From NCBI GenBank assembly GCA_024508675.1, contig JANINQ010000003.1, forward strand, positions 124,001-188,000: a stretch of 64,000 nucleotides of DNA, written 5' to 3'. The DNA comes from Afipia sp. (GTDB lineage: Bacteria; Pseudomonadota; Alphaproteobacteria; Rhizobiales; Xanthobacteraceae). The notes beneath the pieces are model-generated. The model made no database searches and was not told the DNA's origin. It worked only from the letters and a program-made list of their open reading frames with translations. Position numbers and translations under genes: made by a program. Shown one piece after another: positions 9,499 to 39,565 of the stretch (within the stretch, counting starts at the first letter, position 1; every line of letters begins with the position of its first letter).

Positions 9499-9665
9499 TG
9501 TGATCTCCTGCCGGGCGCGGCCCGGAAACTTAAAGTGTTGAAGCCAGATCGTTTTTAACAGCGCCCGTCAACTCACGTTCCTGCGGGGCTGTTGATGGAT
9601 TCGCGGGCTGTTTACGTTTTGTTAGCATTGGCCGGAGCTTGCCCCGGAGGCTGAATTTCGGGCGC

Positions 9666-9693
9666 TTGACTCTGAGAACAAAAAAGGAACAAT
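9666..9693 (+). promoter_or_regulatory. Candidate sigma-70 promoter of the SOS peptide gene
   Basis: TTGACT at 9666-9671 is a close -35 match. At a 16-base spacing there is AACAAT (9688-9693), a partial -10 match. The two LexA boxes cover the spacer and the -10, so bound LexA would block RNA polymerase. The promoter is predicted by eye only. Confidence 0.45.
9676..9690 (-). promoter_or_regulatory. LexA (SOS) box 1
   Basis: GAAC-N7-GAAC, which on the minus strand is GTTC-N7-GTTC, the consensus direct-repeat operator of alphaproteobacterial LexA. Its right half-site ends 3 bases before box 2, giving GAAC-N7-GAAC-AAT-GTTC-N7-GTTC. Confidence 0.75.
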
Positions 9694-9708
9694 GTTCTCA
9701 TTACGTTC
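9694..9708 (+). promoter_or_regulatory. LexA (SOS) box 2
   Basis: An exact GTTC-N7-GTTC (spacer TCATTAC) on the plus strand, 51 bases upstream of the start of the 32-residue membrane peptide. The lexA promoter at 39551-39565 carries the same motif. Confidence 0.8.
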
Positions 9709-9758
9709 TCACAGAGTCGTATCGGATAGTCGTCAGAGCGTCGATAGGGAGTTCGGTC

Positions 9759-9857
9759 ATGTTGAAGACATTCGTTGAAGAAGCTGCTGCGCTGACCTCG
9801 GTTATCTTGTTCGTCGGAATGATTGCAATCTGGGCGCAGGTCATTCCGCAGATGTAG
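9759..9857 (+). CDS. 32-residue single-span membrane peptide, SOS-controlled (SidA-like candidate)
   Basis: The start is ATG 9759, with AGGGAG at 9746-9751 seven bases upstream, an excellent ribosome-binding site. The peptide opens MLKTFVEEAAALTSVILFVG and ends WAQVIPQM. It has a short charged N-terminus, one ~20-residue hydrophobic span and a short tail. A longer frame back to 9639 lacks a site and would run through the LexA boxes. Two LexA boxes sit just upstream. Caulobacter SidA is a 29-residue inner-membrane peptide made under LexA control that stops division, and this gene shares size, topology and control. Homology and function are inferred. Confidence 0.7.
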   Translation: MLKTFVEEAAALTSVILFVGMIAIWAQVIPQM

Positions 9858-9869
9858 TGACTGGACCGG

Positions 9870-9931
9870 CCTCGGGAACACCCCCGGGGCTGGGGAAAAC
9901 GATGATGGACCCGGCATTGATCGGCGGGTCC
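9870..9931 (+). other. Two hairpins between the SOS peptide and dnaE
   Basis: Just after the peptide stop codon, CCTCGGG can pair with the CCCCGGGG that follows. A second stem, GGACCCG / CGGGTCC, lies at 9907-9931. Neither is followed by a T-run, so they may be attenuators or RNA-processing structures rather than terminators. The 191-base gap to dnaE holds no other gene that I can see. Confidence 0.35.
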
Positions 9932-10048
9932 GCGTCCGTTGCATGGACAGCTGTCGTACAAGGCACCACCATCGACCCTCGTGAGTCGTTCCGTCATCGC
10001 AAAAGGTTCATCGCGCCGGTGAACCTAGCGAAGGTTGCCAAGGTCCAC

Positions 10049-13000
10049 ATGTCCAGAACCGCTTCGCCGAAGTCCTCCGCGCTCGATCCCGGATTCGTGC
10101 ATTTGCACGTTCATTCGGCTTATTCGCTGCTGCAGGGCTCGATCACCATCACCAAGCTGGTGGAACTCGCGAAGGCCGACCATCAGCCCGCGCTGGCGCT
10201 GACCGACAACGACAACATGTTCGGCGCGCTGGAGTTTTCCGACAAGGTCGCGGGTTATGGCATTCAGCCGATTACCGGCTGCGCCATGGCGGTCGATTTC
10301 GGCGATCAGGACCCGGCGGCGCGCAATGCGCTTGCGCCTGCGCGGATCGTTCTGCTGGCGACCAACGAAGACGGCTATCGCAGCCTGATGAAACTCAATT
10401 CCCGCGCGTTCCATGAGACGCCGGTGAATTACGCTCCGCACATCAAGATCGAATGGCTGGACGGCGAGACTGCCGGGTTGATCGCGCTGACCGGCGGGCC
10501 CGAAGGCCCGATCGCGCAGGCCATCAATGCCGATCAGCCCGCGCTGGCGCAGGCGCGCTGCGACATTCTGGCAAAACTGTTCGGCGACCGGCTTTACATC
10601 GAACTGCAACGCCATGGGCTGGAGAGCGAGCGTCGCTGCGAGTCCGCGCTGATCGACATGGCCTATGCCATGGGCGTGCCGCTGGTCGCGACCAACCAGC
10701 CATACTTCGCGAGTGCCGACGATTACGAAGCGCACGATGCGCTGCTCTGCATCGCGGGTGGGCGTCTGGTATCGGAAACCGATCGCGAACAGTTGACGCC
10801 GGATCATCGTTTCAAGACGCGCGCCGAAATGGCGGTGCTGTTTGCCGATCTGCCGGAAGCCCTCGCATCCACGGTCGAGATTGCGAAGCGCTGCGCCTAC
10901 CGTCCGCGCACGCGCAAGCCGATCCTGCCGCGCTTCACGGTGGGCGGCGACAACGCGGCTGACGCCGAAAGCGCCGAAGCGGAGGAACTGCGCCGTCAGG
11001 CAGAGGACGGCCTTGCGTGGCGTCTGCAGAAATACGGTCTCGCGCCCGGCACAACTCAGGAGGATTACGCGAAGCGTCTGGCGTTCGAGCTCGACGTCAT
11101 CACGCGCATGAAATATCCCGGCTACTTCCTGATCGTGTCGGACTTTATCAAACACGCGAAGTCAAAGGGCATTCCGGTGGGGCCGGGGCGTGGTTCGGGC
11201 GCGGGTTCGCTGGTGGCCTATGCACTCACGATTACCGACCTCGATCCGATCCGCTTCGGCCTGCTGTTCGAGCGCTTCCTCAATCCGGAACGCGTGTCGA
11301 TGCCGGACTTCGACATCGACTTCTGCCAGGACCGGCGCGGCGAGGTGATCGACTACGTGCAGCGCCGTTACGGCACCGATCACGTCGCGCAGATCATTAC
11401 CTTCGGAACGTTGCAGGCGCGCGGCGTGCTGCGTGACGTCGGCCGCGTGTTGCAGATGCCCTACGGGCAGGTCGACAAGCTGACCAAGCTGGTGCCGCAG
11501 AATCCGGCGGCGCCGGTGTCGCTGAAACAGGCGATCGAAGGCGAGCCGAAGCTGCAAGCCTTCCGCGACGAGGACCCGGTGATCGCGCGCGCCTTTTCCA
11601 TCGCGCAGAAGCTGGAAGGCTTGAACCGCCACGCCTCGACCCACGCCGCCGGCATCGTGATTGGCGACCGGCCGCTGCACGAACTGGTGCCGCTCTATCG
11701 CGATCCGAAATCCGACATGCCGGTGACCCAGTTCAACATGAAATGGGTCGAGCCGGCGGGCCTCGTGAAGTTCGACTTCCTCGGCCTCAAGACGCTGACG
11801 GTGCTCGACGTCGCTGTGAAGCTGCTCAAGCAGCGCGATCTCGATCTCGATCTGTCGACGTTGCCGATGGACGACGCGCCGACTTACGAGATGCTGGCGC
11901 GTGGCGATGTGGTTGGCGTGTTCCAGGTTGAAAGTCAGGGCATGCGGCGCGCGCTGGTCGACATGCGCCCCGACCGTCTGGAGGATTTGATCGCGCTGGT
12001 CGCGCTGTATCGCCCGGGTCCGATGGCGAACATTCCGACCTATTGCGCGCGCAAGCATGGCGACGAAGAGCCGGAATACATGCATCCGATGCTCGAGCCG
12101 ATCCTCAAGGAAACCTTCGGCGTCATCATCTATCAGGAACAGGTGATGCAGATCGCGCAGGTGATGGCGGGCTATTCGCTCGGCGACGCCGACCTGCTGC
12201 GCCGCGCGATGGGCAAGAAGATCCGCGCCGAGATGGACAAGCAGCGCGAGATTTTCGTCGCCGGCGCGATGAAGAACAACGTACCGAAAGGGCAGGCGGA
12301 AACCATCTTCGAGTTGCTGGCGAAGTTCGCCGACTACGGCTTCAACAAGAGCCACGCCGCCGCCTACGCGCTGGTGTCGTACCAGACCGCCTACATGAAG
12401 GCGCATTATCCGGTGGAGTTCATCGCGGCGTCGATGACGCTCGACATGAGCAACACCGACAAGCTGTCGGAATTCCGCGCCGAGGCGCAGCGGCTCGGCA
12501 TCAAGGTCGAACCGCCGTCGATCAATCGCTCCGGCCCGACCTTCGAGGTCAGCGAGAACACGATCTACTACGCGCTCGCCGCGCTCAAGGGTGTCGGCCA
12601 GCAGGCCGTCGAAATGATTGTCGAAGCGAGGGGCGACAAGCCGTTCACCTCGCTGGCTGACTTTGCCTCGCGTGTCAGTCCGCGCGCGATCAACAAGCGT
12701 GTGGTGGAAAGCTTAGCTGCCGCCGGCGCGTTCGATTGTCTCGATACCAACCGCGCGCGCGTGTTCGCGGGCGCCGATGCCATCATCGCTGCATGTCAGC
12801 GCAGCCATGAGGCGGCAACCAGCGGCCAGAACGACATGTTCGGCGGTGCGGCCGATGCTCCGAGCATCGTGCTTCCGAACATCGAGCCATGGCTGGCGGC
12901 TGATCGCCTGCGGCGCGAATACGATGCCATCGGCTTCTTCCTCTCGGGACATCCGCTGGACGATTATTCCACCGCGCTGAAACGTCTGCGCGTGCAGTCG

Positions 13001-13570
13001 TGGACGGAGTTCTCCCGCGCGGTCAAGACCGGCGCGACCGCGGGCCGTGTTGCCGCCACGGTGGTGTCGCGCATGGAGCGCCGCACCAAGACCGGCAACA
13101 AGATGGGCATCATCGGCCTGTCGGACCCGACCGGGCATTTCGAGGCCGTGCTGTTCTCCGAAGGTCTTGCGCAGTACCGCGATGTGCTGGAGCCGGGCTC
13201 GGCGGTGCTGATGCAGATCGGCGCGGAACTTCAGGGCGAAGACGTGCGCGCCCGCATTCTTCATGCCGAGCCGCTCGACGATGCCGCCGCCAAGACGCAG
13301 AAGGGGCTGCGCATCTTCGTGCGTGACGACAAGCCACTGGAGTCGATTGCGAAGCGGCTGGAGGGTCATCAGGCAACGCCGGTGGTCACCAAGTTCCAGG
13401 CGCCCAAGCCTGCCGGACCTACCGCAGGCGATGGCGAAGTCACGCTGATCATGATGCTCGACCTTCAGACCGAGGTGGAGATGAAGCTGCCGGGCAAGTT
13501 CAAGGTGTCGCCCCAGATCGCCGGAGCCATCAAGGCCGTGTCAGGTGTGGTGGACGTGCAGACCGTCTAG
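10049..13570 (+). CDS. dnaE: DNA polymerase III subunit alpha (replicative, DnaE1 type)
   Basis: From ATG 10049 (MSRTASPKSSALDPGFVHLHVHS) it is 1173 residues, the size of replicative DnaE1 rather than the shorter mutagenic DnaE2. It has an N-terminal PHP domain (HLHVHSAYSLLQGSI, LALTDNDNMFGALEF), the palm with PDFDIDFC where Asp422 and Asp424 match the catalytic pair of E. coli, GRGSGAGSLVAYAL, fingers, tandem HhH and a C-terminal OB fold. The frame is open to 9857, but that extension is not conserved-looking. It is the catalytic subunit of the chromosomal replicase. It sits downstream of the SOS-controlled peptide, so partial read-through control is possible. Confidence 0.95.
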   Translation: MSRTASPKSSALDPGFVHLHVHSAYSLLQGSITITKLVELAKADHQPALALTDNDNMFGALEFSDKVAGYGIQPITGCAMAVDFGDQDPAARNALAPARIVLLATNEDGYRSLMKLNSRAFHETPVNYAPHIKIEWLDGETAGLIALTGGPEGPIAQAINADQPALAQARCDILAKLFGDRLYIELQRHGLESERRCESALIDMAYAMGVPLVATNQPYFASADDYEAHDALLCIAGGRLVSETDREQLTPDHRFKTRAEMAVLFADLPEALASTVEIAKRCAYRPRTRKPILPRFTVGGDNAADAESAEAEELRRQAEDGLAWRLQKYGLAPGTTQEDYAKRLAFELDVITRMKYPGYFLIVSDFIKHAKSKGIPVGPGRGSGAGSLVAYALTITDLDPIRFGLLFERFLNPERVSMPDFDIDFCQDRRGEVIDYVQRRYGTDHVAQIITFGTLQARGVLRDVGRVLQMPYGQVDKLTKLVPQNPAAPVSLKQAIEGEPKLQAFRDEDPVIARAFSIAQKLEGLNRHASTHAAGIVIGDRPLHELVPLYRDPKSDMPVTQFNMKWVEPAGLVKFDFLGLKTLTVLDVAVKLLKQRDLDLDLSTLPMDDAPTYEMLARGDVVGVFQVESQGMRRALVDMRPDRLEDLIALVALYRPGPMANIPTYCARKHGDEEPEYMHPMLEPILKETFGVIIYQEQVMQIAQVMAGYSLGDADLLRRAMGKKIRAEMDKQREIFVAGAMKNNVPKGQAETIFELLAKFADYGFNKSHAAAYALVSYQTAYMKAHYPVEFIAASMTLDMSNTDKLSEFRAEAQRLGIKVEPPSINRSGPTFEVSENTIYYALAALKGVGQQAVEMIVEARGDKPFTSLADFASRVSPRAINKRVVESLAAAGAFDCLDTNRARVFAGADAIIAACQRSHEAATSGQNDMFGGAADAPSIVLPNIEPWLAADRLRREYDAIGFFLSGHPLDDYSTALKRLRVQSWTEFSRAVKTGATAGRVAATVVSRMERRTKTGNKMGIIGLSDPTGHFEAVLFSEGLAQYRDVLEPGSAVLMQIGAELQGEDVRARILHAEPLDDAAAKTQKGLRIFVRDDKPLESIAKRLEGHQATPVVTKFQAPKPAGPTAGDGEVTLIMMLDLQTEVEMKLPGKFKVSPQIAGAIKAVSGVVDVQTV

Positions 13571-13596: not shown

Positions 13597-13688
13597 ATAT
13601 TCCGACTATCATTCGTTCAAACAATGTTCAGGTGGCCCGGCGTTCACTGAGACGTTGGGCCGTTGGGCTGATGTGAGGGACACGTCTG

Positions 13689-15974
13689 ATGCGCGGGATG
13701 ATCAGGATTTTGAATGTCGCGGCGATGCTGGTTCTGGTCGCCGCTGTCACTCCGCTTCAGGCGCAGACCGCACCACCTCCGCAAGGCCAGCAGGGCCGTA
13801 TCGCGCTGGTCATCGGCAACGGTAACTATCATAGCGCACCGCTGGCAACCGCCGCCAACGATGCGGGTCTGATCGCCCAGACCTTGCAGGCGGCAGGCTT
13901 CGATGTAGTCGGCGCGCGCGACCTCGACGGCGAGACGTTGCGCCAGACCTTCCGCGATTTCATCCAGAAGGCGCAGAAGGCGGGCCCCGATACCGTCGCT
14001 ATGATCTATCTCTCCGGTTACGGCCTGCAGCTTGCGGGCGAGAATTACTTCGCGCCGGTGGATGCGGCGATGGCGCGCGACACTGATGTTCCGGTCGAAG
14101 GCCTGCGTATTGGCGATTACGTGCGCCAGCTGTCGGCGTTGCCGCTCAAGGCGAACATCGTGGTGCTCGATACCGCCTACAATTCGCCGTTCGCCAAGGA
14201 AGGCCAGCCGCTGGCCGGTGGCCTTGCGCTGATGGAGCCCGAGCCGAAAAGCCTGATCGCGTTCAACGCAGCGCCGGGCACGGTCGCACCGAGCCCGACC
14301 GGCAACTACGGGCCTTATGCGCAGGCGCTGGCGGAAATGATCCGCACCGGCGGCATTTCGCTGCCCGAAGTGTTCAATCGCACGCGGCTGCGCGTCAACG
14401 ATGTGACCAAGGGTGCGCAGGTGCCGTGGGATGCGCAGAAGCTCGAAGGTGACTTCGTGTTCTTCGACCGCGCGCCCGATGCGCCGCCGCTGCAGGCTAA
14501 TCAGGACGCCGCTGCGCGCACGAAGCCGATCCGCGATTTCAGCGCGCAGGAGGCTTACACCGCCGCGCTCGAACGCGACACCATTGCGGACTACGAAGCG
14601 TTTCTCGCTGCCTATCCGGACGATCCGATGGCAAAGCGGGTGAGGGCGATCGTCGCTGCACGCCGCGAGGCGATCACATGGCGGCAGACTTATCGCGCCA
14701 ACACGCAACAGGCTTACTGGTCCTACCTCAAGCGTTATCCTAAGGGTCCGCACGCCGCTGACGCGCGCCGCAGGCTCGCCAACATCGCTGCTGCGCTCGA
14801 ACCGCCGCCGGCGTTCGATGCCTACGCCTATGACGTACCGCCGCCGCCGGAGTACGAATATGAGTATGTCGACCGGCCCTATCTGATGTTCGACGATCCG
14901 GTGTTCGCGTTCGCGCCGCCGCCACCGCCGCCGATTTTCTTCCTGCCGCCGCCGCCGGATGATTTCGTCGTGCTCGATCCGCCGTACTATTACGACGATG
15001 CCTATTATCTGCCGCAGCCGGTGTTCATCCCGATTCCGGTTTTCATCCGGCCGCCCATTTATGTGCGCCCGCCGGTGAACCGTTTCCTGTTCACCAACAT
15101 CCACAATGCCAACGTGATCAACAACGTCATCAATCGGCGTCCTGCGTCGGCGCTTGCTCCCGGCGTTCAGCCCGGTAGCCAGTTCAGGCCGGGAGCGGGA
15201 CGACCGGGTGGTCCCGGTGCTGCGGCGCTGGCGCGTCCGGCCTTCGCGCCGGGATTGCCGCCGTCGGCTGAGCGCCGGGGTAATCTCATTCGTCAGGGCC
15301 GGGTCAGTGCGCCTGCCGGTGTTTTGCCGGGTGCGGCGGGACGTGGACGTCCGGGAGGACCCGGAGCGCCTGCCGGTGTCGCGCCGGCGAATAGCTTGCG
15401 GCCGGGCAACATGCTGCCGGGTCAAACTCCGGGTGCAGGGCCGGGCGGCAGACCCGGACCGGGCGCGCGTCCATTGCCAACCCCGGGCGTGAGCGGTCCT
15501 CAGCCCGGACCGGGCGGCGGGCCGGGCCGGTTCGACCGCAGGCCGGGCGGAGCGCCGGATGCGGGGGCGCCCGCTACGGCTCGTCCCGGCATCACTGCTC
15601 CATCTGGACCAGTTGCAAGGCCGGGCCGTCCGGAACGTCCGCAGATCCAGCGGCCGGCGGCACGGCCGGAGGTTGCCCCGCGTCCGCAGCCGCAGCGGCC
15701 GCAGTTCCAGCGTCCTCCTGCTGCTGCTCCGCGTCCGCAGATGGCGCCAAGGCCGCAGCCACAATTCCAGCCGCGTCCGCAAATGGCTCCGAGGCCGCAG
15801 CCTCAGATGGCGCCGCGTCCCCAGCCGCAGTTCCAGCGTCCGGCTGCGCCACCGCCACGGCCCCAGATGGCGCCGAGGCCGCAAATGGCCCCGCGACCCG
15901 CTCCGGTGGCGCGCCCGGCACCTCCGCCGCGGCCGGCAGCACCGGCACGGGCGGTTCCAAAGCCTCCGGGCTAA
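13689..15974 (+). CDS. Exported caspase-fold (peptidase C14-like) protein with degenerate active site and Pro-rich tail
   Basis: A 761-residue protein. It has a signal peptide (ILNVAAMLVLVAAVTPLQAQ, residues ~7-26) and a caspase-like domain (GRIALVIGNGNY at 37, AANDAGLIAQTLQAAGFDV at 56, MIYLSGYG at 105, NIVVLDTAYNSPF at 156). Two short tetratricopeptide-like segments follow (YEAFLAAYPDDP, YWSYLKRYPKGP), then ~360 residues rich in Pro, Gly, Arg and Gln. Active relatives have SGHG and DAC. Here His is Tyr111 and Cys is Ala163, so it is probably a pseudo-enzyme. The start has GAGGGA upstream. The role is unknown, perhaps a cell-envelope scaffold. Confidence 0.8.
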   Translation: MRGMIRILNVAAMLVLVAAVTPLQAQTAPPPQGQQGRIALVIGNGNYHSAPLATAANDAGLIAQTLQAAGFDVVGARDLDGETLRQTFRDFIQKAQKAGPDTVAMIYLSGYGLQLAGENYFAPVDAAMARDTDVPVEGLRIGDYVRQLSALPLKANIVVLDTAYNSPFAKEGQPLAGGLALMEPEPKSLIAFNAAPGTVAPSPTGNYGPYAQALAEMIRTGGISLPEVFNRTRLRVNDVTKGAQVPWDAQKLEGDFVFFDRAPDAPPLQANQDAAARTKPIRDFSAQEAYTAALERDTIADYEAFLAAYPDDPMAKRVRAIVAARREAITWRQTYRANTQQAYWSYLKRYPKGPHAADARRRLANIAAALEPPPAFDAYAYDVPPPPEYEYEYVDRPYLMFDDPVFAFAPPPPPPIFFLPPPPDDFVVLDPPYYYDDAYYLPQPVFIPIPVFIRPPIYVRPPVNRFLFTNIHNANVINNVINRRPASALAPGVQPGSQFRPGAGRPGGPGAAALARPAFAPGLPPSAERRGNLIRQGRVSAPAGVLPGAAGRGRPGGPGAPAGVAPANSLRPGNMLPGQTPGAGPGGRPGPGARPLPTPGVSGPQPGPGGGPGRFDRRPGGAPDAGAPATARPGITAPSGPVARPGRPERPQIQRPAARPEVAPRPQPQRPQFQRPPAAAPRPQMAPRPQPQFQPRPQMAPRPQPQMAPRPQPQFQRPAAPPPRPQMAPRPQMAPRPAPVARPAPPPRPAAPARAVPKPPG
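15640..15940 (+). repeat. Imperfect coding repeat of Pro-Arg-Gln units
   Basis: The end of the caspase-fold gene encodes repeated RPQ, QMAPRPQPQ and FQRP units, with matching near-repeats in the DNA (for example the 'cagatggcgcc' word recurs). Such tracts often vary in length between strains by slippage or recombination. Confidence 0.6.
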
Positions 15975-38693: not shown

Positions 38694-38723
38694 AATTCAA
38701 TCTCAGTAAATTCAATCTCAGTA
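38694..38723. repeat. Perfect 15-base tandem duplication over the lexA stop codon
   Basis: AATTCAATCTCAGTA occurs twice in immediate succession (38694-38708 and 38709-38723). The second copy contains the lexA stop (38718-38720) and its last codon, so the duplication reproduces the gene end just downstream. Confidence 0.85.
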
Positions 38724-39425
38724 TTTGCGGACCAGCCCGATCAGCTTGCCCTGAATGCGCACGCGGTTCGGCGGCAGGATGCGGACTTCGTAAGCCGCGT
38801 TGGCCGGTTCAAGCGCGATGGACGCGCCGCGGCGGCGGAAGCGCTTCAGTGTGGCTTCTTCCTCGTCGATCAGCGCGACCACGATGTCGCCGGTATCGGC
38901 AGTTTCGTTGCGCTGGATCAGCACGGTGTCGCCGTCGAGAATGCCGGCTTCCATCATGGAGTCGCCACGCACTTCGAGGGCGTAGTGTTCGCCGGAACCG
39001 AGCATGTCGGGTGGCACGCTGATGGTGTGGCTGCGGGTCTGCAGCGCCTCGATCGGTGTACCTGCCGCGATCCGGCCCATGACCGGCACGGCCACGGGGA
39101 AGCTCGCATCCTCGTCAGGCCCGAGCGACGGTGCGGAACGAACCTTGCCGAGATTGCCTTCGATGACGCTGGGGGTAAAGCCGCGGCGCGAGCCGCCGGG
39201 ATTGGCGCTGGTTTCGGGGAGCTTGATCACCTCGATGGCGCGGGCGCGGTTGGCCAGCCTGCGGATGAAGCCGCGTTCTTCCAGAGCGGTGATCAGTCGG
39301 TGGATGCCCGACTTGGAGCGCAAGTCCAGCGCGTCCTTCATCTCGTCGAAGGAGGGTGGAACACCAGCTTCCTTGAGCCGCTCGTTGATGAAGCGAAGAA
39401 GCTCGTATTGTTTGCGTGTCAGCAT
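38718..39425 (-). CDS. lexA: SOS repressor LexA
   Basis: A 235-residue repressor from ATG 39425 ([20 protein letters not shown]). The frame is open to 39503, but that extension is not LexA-like. The N-terminal winged helix contains [21 protein letters not shown]. The self-cleavage site is Ala121-Gly122 in [13 protein letters not shown]. The catalytic pair is Ser156 ([14 protein letters not shown]) and Lys194 ([10 protein letters not shown]). It represses SOS genes until RecA filaments trigger cleavage. Its own promoter carries the GTTC-N7-GTTC operator, and a matching pair stands at 9676-9708. Confidence 0.96.
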
Positions 39426-39535: not shown

Positions 39536-39565
39536 GAACGAACACTATATGTTCCATATGTGTTC
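39536..39565 (-). promoter_or_regulatory. LexA operator in the lexA promoter
   Basis: GTTC-N7-GTTC occupies 39551-39565. A GAAC at 39540-39543 lies exactly 7 bases before the first GTTC, and another GAAC at 39536-39539. So half-sites recur every 11 bases as GAAC-N7-GTTC-N7-GTTC. On the minus strand a TATAGT overlaps them, consistent with autorepression. The lexA start is about 110 bases downstream. Confidence 0.8.

Follow-up and report, generated by a model that had tools for sequence, protein, structure and literature searches.

A candidate SidA-like membrane peptide encoded between paired LexA-type sites and dnaE in Afipia and related Alphaproteobacteria

In Caulobacter, the 29-residue peptide SidA is induced by the SOS response, resides in the inner membrane and interacts with FtsW (PMC4211646, cited here and below for the part of its text available to us). 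Another Caulobacter protein, DidA, is likewise a damage-induced small membrane division inhibitor (PMC4211646); it differs in being 71 residues long, SOS-independent and a partner of FtsN. SOS-induced division inhibitors also occur in other bacteria, namely YneA in Bacillus, SosA in Staphylococcus and SulA in E. coli, the last of which disrupts FtsZ polymerisation, and the same text calls both yneA and sidA unrelated to sulA (PMC4211646). In the full-text literature that we searched, which is mostly without subscription papers, no report of SidA outside Caulobacter was found, and an earlier remark is possible.

An earlier note on a 64,000-nucleotide stretch of Afipia sp. DNA (the window) proposed that a LexA-controlled peptide gene within it encodes a SidA-type division inhibitor. 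The gene lies on the forward strand at 9759-9857 (ATG at 9759, stop codon ending at 9857), and its 32-residue product, MLKTFVEEAAALTSVILFVGMIAIWAQVIPQM, is predicted to be a single-span membrane peptide. The 32 codons are as the note had described them, and the hydrophobic span is borne out by hydropathy, the best 18-residue value being 2.24 vs 1.92 for the Caulobacter peptide. The ribosome-binding site AGGGAG (9746-9751, forward strand) was also found as described, with a 7-base spacer to the ATG. A longer, TTG-started frame (9639-9857) was rejected because relatives L021 and L022 are open for only 36-37 codons, and antisense open reading frames at 9612-9944 and 9701-9997 overlap the region. 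Searching NCBIfam and Pfam with the peptide gave no match. It is smaller than YneA, SosA and SulA and has no known sequence relation to them. The gene order runs from a ProRS-like gene through two genes with MacB/FtsX and ABC-transporter domains (neighbours that we take, on our own reading, to be ProRS, LolC and LolD) to a divergent DUF3551 gene, the peptide element and dnaE. The DUF3551 gene (PF12071; 9229-9498, reverse strand) shares its intergenic region with the peptide promoter.

Upstream of the peptide gene, a -35-like hexamer, TTGACT (9666-9671, forward strand), is followed by two exact SOS sites, neither assigned a strand: site 1, GAAC-N7-GAAC (GAACAAAAAAGGAAC, 9676-9690), and site 2, GTTC-N7-GTTC (GTTCTCATTACGTTC, 9694-9708), which begins 18 bases downstream of the start of site 1. 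The claim that two such sites lie 3 bases apart is thus confirmed, with one correction: from the second box to the ATG there are 50 bases, and not 51. That the sites overlap a promoter is also upheld, since TTGAC begins 9-11 bases ahead of the start of site 1 in all 30 loci compared (those of 29 relatives and the window's own). This near-constant distance places site 1 across the -35/-10 spacer; site 2 would then cover the -10 element and the transcription start. Among the 29 relatives, which are the best-scoring ones of a peptide search, site 1 is kept in 29 and site 2, hence both sites, in 28. DnaE is present in all 30 loci, so that the combination of peptide and paired boxes before dnaE, which the note had suggested looking for in related genomes, is found there (both sites in 28/29, DnaE in 29/29).

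A lone GTTC-N7-GTTC is close to chance frequency in this genome (153 matches vs 98 for a reversed control pattern; in the window, 5 vs 2.06 expected, a count reached by 5 of 100 shuffles), and the weight therefore rests on the pair and its conservation. With at most one mismatch allowed, the 4.4-Mb genome holds an opposed pair at a single place and the control pattern nowhere; the pair is not a product of chance. When one locus was taken per peptide picked, 12/56 loci had a second site at a distance of exactly 18 bases (at most two mismatches), against an expectation of about 1 if base frequencies are equal, a figure that is not a probability because the loci are related. The two sites point towards each other in the window peptide's family, in Rhodopseudomonas and in one Xanthobacteraceae strain, and share one orientation in Caulobacter, Asticcacaulis, Brevundimonas, Phenylobacterium and Parvularculaceae. 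A single box is reported for about 97% of Caulobacter SOS promoters (PMC12700426, in the part available), which makes a double site unusual; it would suit a gene whose leakage is costly.

LexA itself is encoded in the window: a gene on the reverse strand at 38718-39425 specifies 235 residues with LexA DNA-binding and S24 peptidase domains, and a LexA-type box (39551-39565, no strand assigned) lies about 125 bases upstream of its likely start. Among 16 other box regions hand-picked from the genome listing, three boxes precede genes for proteins that we identified by eye as RecA, UvrA and RadA.

We found dnaE in 30 named genomes, hand-chosen from 80 CtrA loci and rich in Caulobacterales and Hyphomicrobiales; judged by DnaE, Afipia massiliensis comes closest to the window (90% over 126 residues). 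In 27 of the 30, dnaE is preceded by a LexA-type box and then a small open reading frame of about 28-36 residues that looks hydrophobic by eye. The box is exact in 20 of the 27 and has one mismatch in seven (four Caulobacter, two Asticcacaulis and Oceanicaulis). This arrangement was not found in Hyphomicrobium, Oryzicola or Brevundimonas bacteroides, the other three of the 30. Two peptides from this position, one of Caulobacter and one of Phenylobacterium, were scored against the curated model NF033228 (div_inhib_SidA, cut-off 35 bits) and reached 71.6 bits (E 3.5e-20) and 69.3 bits (E 1.9e-19), respectively. Because these dnaE-adjoining peptides are SidA by NF033228, the gene in the window is located at the position of sidA. 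Published locus tags for dnaE (CC1926; PMC1839093) and sidA (CCNA_02004; PMC10769358), each seen in part of its source, belong to two number series and so do not prove adjacency; the sequences of the loci do.

The likeness extends beyond position. Like the window gene, sidA has a LexA-type promoter and stands directly before dnaE, and both peptides (29 and 32 residues) have one hydrophobic span and a basic-then-acidic N-terminus. All four Caulobacter loci examined have two LexA-type sites 18 bases apart. However, the two sites of Caulobacter have the same orientation and contain one mismatch apiece, whereas those of the window are opposed with perfect half-sites; the Caulobacter loci encode tails of the CQVAQ- or CSVAQ-type, whereas the window peptide ends in WAQVIPQM; and the gap to a dnaE start at ATG 10050 is longer in the window. 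The window peptide is also unmatched by NF033228 at E<=1, short of the equivalog cut-off. Across the class, no genome of 289 scored above that cut-off; one of 14 control genomes did, a set including E. coli, B. subtilis and Caulobacter vibrioides, and we take that one to be Caulobacter.

We compared profiles of the window family (A1), of members of the order with no Caulobacterales row (A2), and of Caulobacterales peptides from the SidA position (A3). A2 aligned with A3 over 23 columns (probability 83%, P 9.1e-6), and the narrow A1 gave a weak alignment with A3 (probability 24%, P 8.6e-4). When 17 dnaE-linked peptides were scored with A2, ten, including both from Caulobacter, exceeded 1000 of 1000 of their own shuffles; the score was reached by 1 and 8 shuffles for the Phenylobacterium peptides and by 37 and 54 for those of Asticcacaulis. 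On these comparisons, common descent of the peptide in Hyphomicrobiales with that of Caulobacter and Brevundimonas appears well supported. For the remaining groups, where common descent is conceivable, the argument is one of position and regulation. We class the window peptide as SidA-like, on the strength of position, regulation and a distant profile match, rather than placing it in NF033228. The reading as a SidA-type inhibitor draws support from its occupying the same place as Caulobacterales SidA, between a LexA-type promoter and dnaE.

We consider it likely that this lineage's counterpart of SidA is encoded at 9759-9857: a LexA-repressed, damage-induced, membrane-inserted peptide that would block division by contacting FtsW, FtsI and FtsN, although LexA binding, induction, insertion, FtsW contact and arrest are all inferred from the DNA. 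In undamaged cells, LexA would occupy the two adjoining sites, from just after the -35 element to past the -10, keeping the promoter shut. DNA damage would lead to RecA-stimulated cleavage of LexA and free the promoter. The 32-residue peptide would then be made, enter the inner membrane as one helix and contact the FtsW/FtsI/FtsN complex, keeping septal wall synthesis off until the damage is repaired. The FtsW-type protein of this genome, encoded beside a MurG-type gene, is 46% identical overall to Caulobacter FtsW, and its residues equivalent to A31, F145 and A246 (Caulobacter numbering) are identical. Changes at these three positions suppress SidA in Caulobacter (PMC4211646). At 46% identity, all three would be kept by chance about one time in ten, so the agreement is consistent with FtsW contact and not compelling.

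A small SOS-induced membrane peptide could instead have another target, such as membrane potential, on which DinQ of E. coli acts, or another envelope protein, and hold the sidA position or have drifted within it. The sequence is weakly conserved beyond the order, and the peptides of Parvularculaceae, Robiginitomaculum and Methylobacterium match A2 no better than many of their own shuffles (138, 202 and 524, respectively). SOS-regulated single-span peptides of other action do exist, toxic DinQ of E. coli being an example in the literature available to us. Nevertheless, we think a different target unlikely, since the gene has the same position in front of dnaE as curated SidA, its profile matches that of SidA and the FtsW residues are kept.

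A further alternative is that the LexA sites are there to induce dnaE, the reading frame being mainly a leader. The dnaE open frame (DNA polymerase III alpha; forward strand) spans 9857-13570 with candidate in-frame ATGs at 9902, 9905 and 10050, leaving about 190 bases after the peptide stop if translation starts at 10050 and 44 if at 9902. In the four Caulobacter loci, 21-26 bases separate the peptide stop from the likely dnaE ATG, making a shared transcript likely there, and a 2012 comparison, as far as its text was available, names dnaE among the genes reported as SOS-regulated in Caulobacter and recovers SOS-regulated dnaE in Alphaproteobacteria with several chromosomes (PMC3323433). Against this, the amino-acid sequence shows purifying selection, a membrane span is present and the Caulobacter counterpart is a division inhibitor; moreover, the roughly 190 bases before ATG 10050 hold a hairpin and a conserved motif, though ATGs 9902 and 9905 are closer. 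We therefore judge this alternative very improbable, and induction of dnaE by the LexA sites may be true in addition to a role for the peptide. In the loci examined, the peptide gene stands between the LexA-type box and dnaE, and we infer that the published LexA site of dnaE is the peptide's promoter, with dnaE as the second gene.

The hairpin between the two genes (9866-9893, forward strand, 11 pairs) has an energy z-score of -2.1, was equalled in stability by 5/200 shuffles and is present in close relatives. It is followed by a TGGGGA motif (region 9866-9907) that is invariant in 21 aligned loci, with a GTGGACA-like stretch downstream. This region could be a control region for dnaE or part of its ribosome-binding site, or, going by the consensus, a DnaA-box-like site; Rfam gave no match in the window at the gathering threshold. 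On the far side of dnaE, another, conserved LexA-type box (GTTCAAACAATGTTC, 13615-13629) precedes by about 60 bases a caspase-domain (Peptidase_C14) gene at 13689-15974, making its product a candidate SOS-controlled caspase-like protein. The caspase motif occurs in 14 of 15 relatives fetched; 12 of these 14 have an exact box and the other 2 a box with one mismatch, the spacer being variable.

Substitution patterns in the peptide frame were examined among relatives. Mean minor-allele frequencies at codon positions 1, 2 and 3 were 0.13, 0.03 and 0.30, and the median pN/pS was 0.19 in the peptide frame, compared with 1.4 and 3.5 in the other two (241 of 435 pairs, those with pS between 0.05 and 0.6). 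From these alignments we take the frame to be real and its amino-acid sequence to be under purifying selection; conservation in relatives, whose absence had been named beforehand as refuting, is clear. A chance, untranslated frame behind a LexA-type site, conceivable because short frames are common and a lone GTTC-N7-GTTC is near chance frequency, is already contradicted by the codon-position pattern, the frame-specific selection and the strong matches found in 25 of the 28 genomes from the same genus, and is barely credible. At the level of the DNA, LexA-type control, the hydrophobic single span, frame conservation and linkage to dnaE all hold.

How widely the peptide occurs was first gauged in the window's own genome and 60 relatives, 35 of these 61 being matched at E<=1. 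Apart from the 25 strong matches, one more same-genus genome matched weakly, and the three genomes of the genus without a strong match are 83-84% complete. Of the family's 8 other genera, 6 also gave matches, as did 2 of 24 genomes from the order's other families, one of these two weakly. Over 397 genomes of the order, A1 matched 70 at E<=0.05, at 71 places. We fetched 63 further loci, leaving out the window's own and L020; many are closely related to one another. Even though the search was blind to position, DnaE is present in 58 of the 63, and one of the five without it (L083) lies at a contig end. In 49/63, the 200 bases ahead of the chosen start contain an exact box. In L078, L094, L096, L098, L099 and L107, six genomes of one genus, each of about 5 Mb, the peptide ahead of dnaE is a 27-residue version that is nearly invariant (MIIRDVLALGSLITFMSM...), and no exact LexA box is present there; in L096, the one examined, the best site has 2 mismatches.

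Across the class, A1 matched 6/289 genomes at E<=0.05, own genome included, and A2 matched 32/385 at E<=0.1; the window's genome and a few others aside, these matches are short and partial, many within longer frames. We surveyed position and regulation in about one genome per family (104 searched, 101 with dnaE), which gave 100 upstream regions besides that of the window, 96 of them with the full 640 bases. An exact box with a hydrophobic frame of 24-45 residues precedes dnaE in 9/100 regions at a hydropathy of at least 1.7 and in 12/100 at 1.2 or above, compared with 1 and 3, respectively, of 2000 shuffled regions. Allowing one mismatch leaves the real counts at 9 and 12 and raises those of the shuffles to 10 and 35. 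Any exact box upstream of dnaE was present in 18/100. The combination is above chance yet confined to a minority of the sample, so the arrangement is not class-wide.

Tentatively, and with a little less than even confidence, we propose that a LexA promoter driving a SidA-type peptide and then dnaE is an ancestral module for an SOS checkpoint, shared by Caulobacterales and Hyphomicrobiales at the least. What the literature describes as a LexA site of alphaproteobacterial dnaE would then be the promoter of a division-blocking peptide that had been overlooked, and with the two genes close together, a single derepression would both halt septation and add replicative polymerase. The peptide offers an explanation for the LexA site credited to dnaE, and it suggests a SidA family much wider than the curated model can detect. 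As a conserved candidate with a constant location in front of dnaE, it can be tested in Bradyrhizobium or Rhodopseudomonas, and its dozens of natural variants are available for mapping contacts with FtsW.
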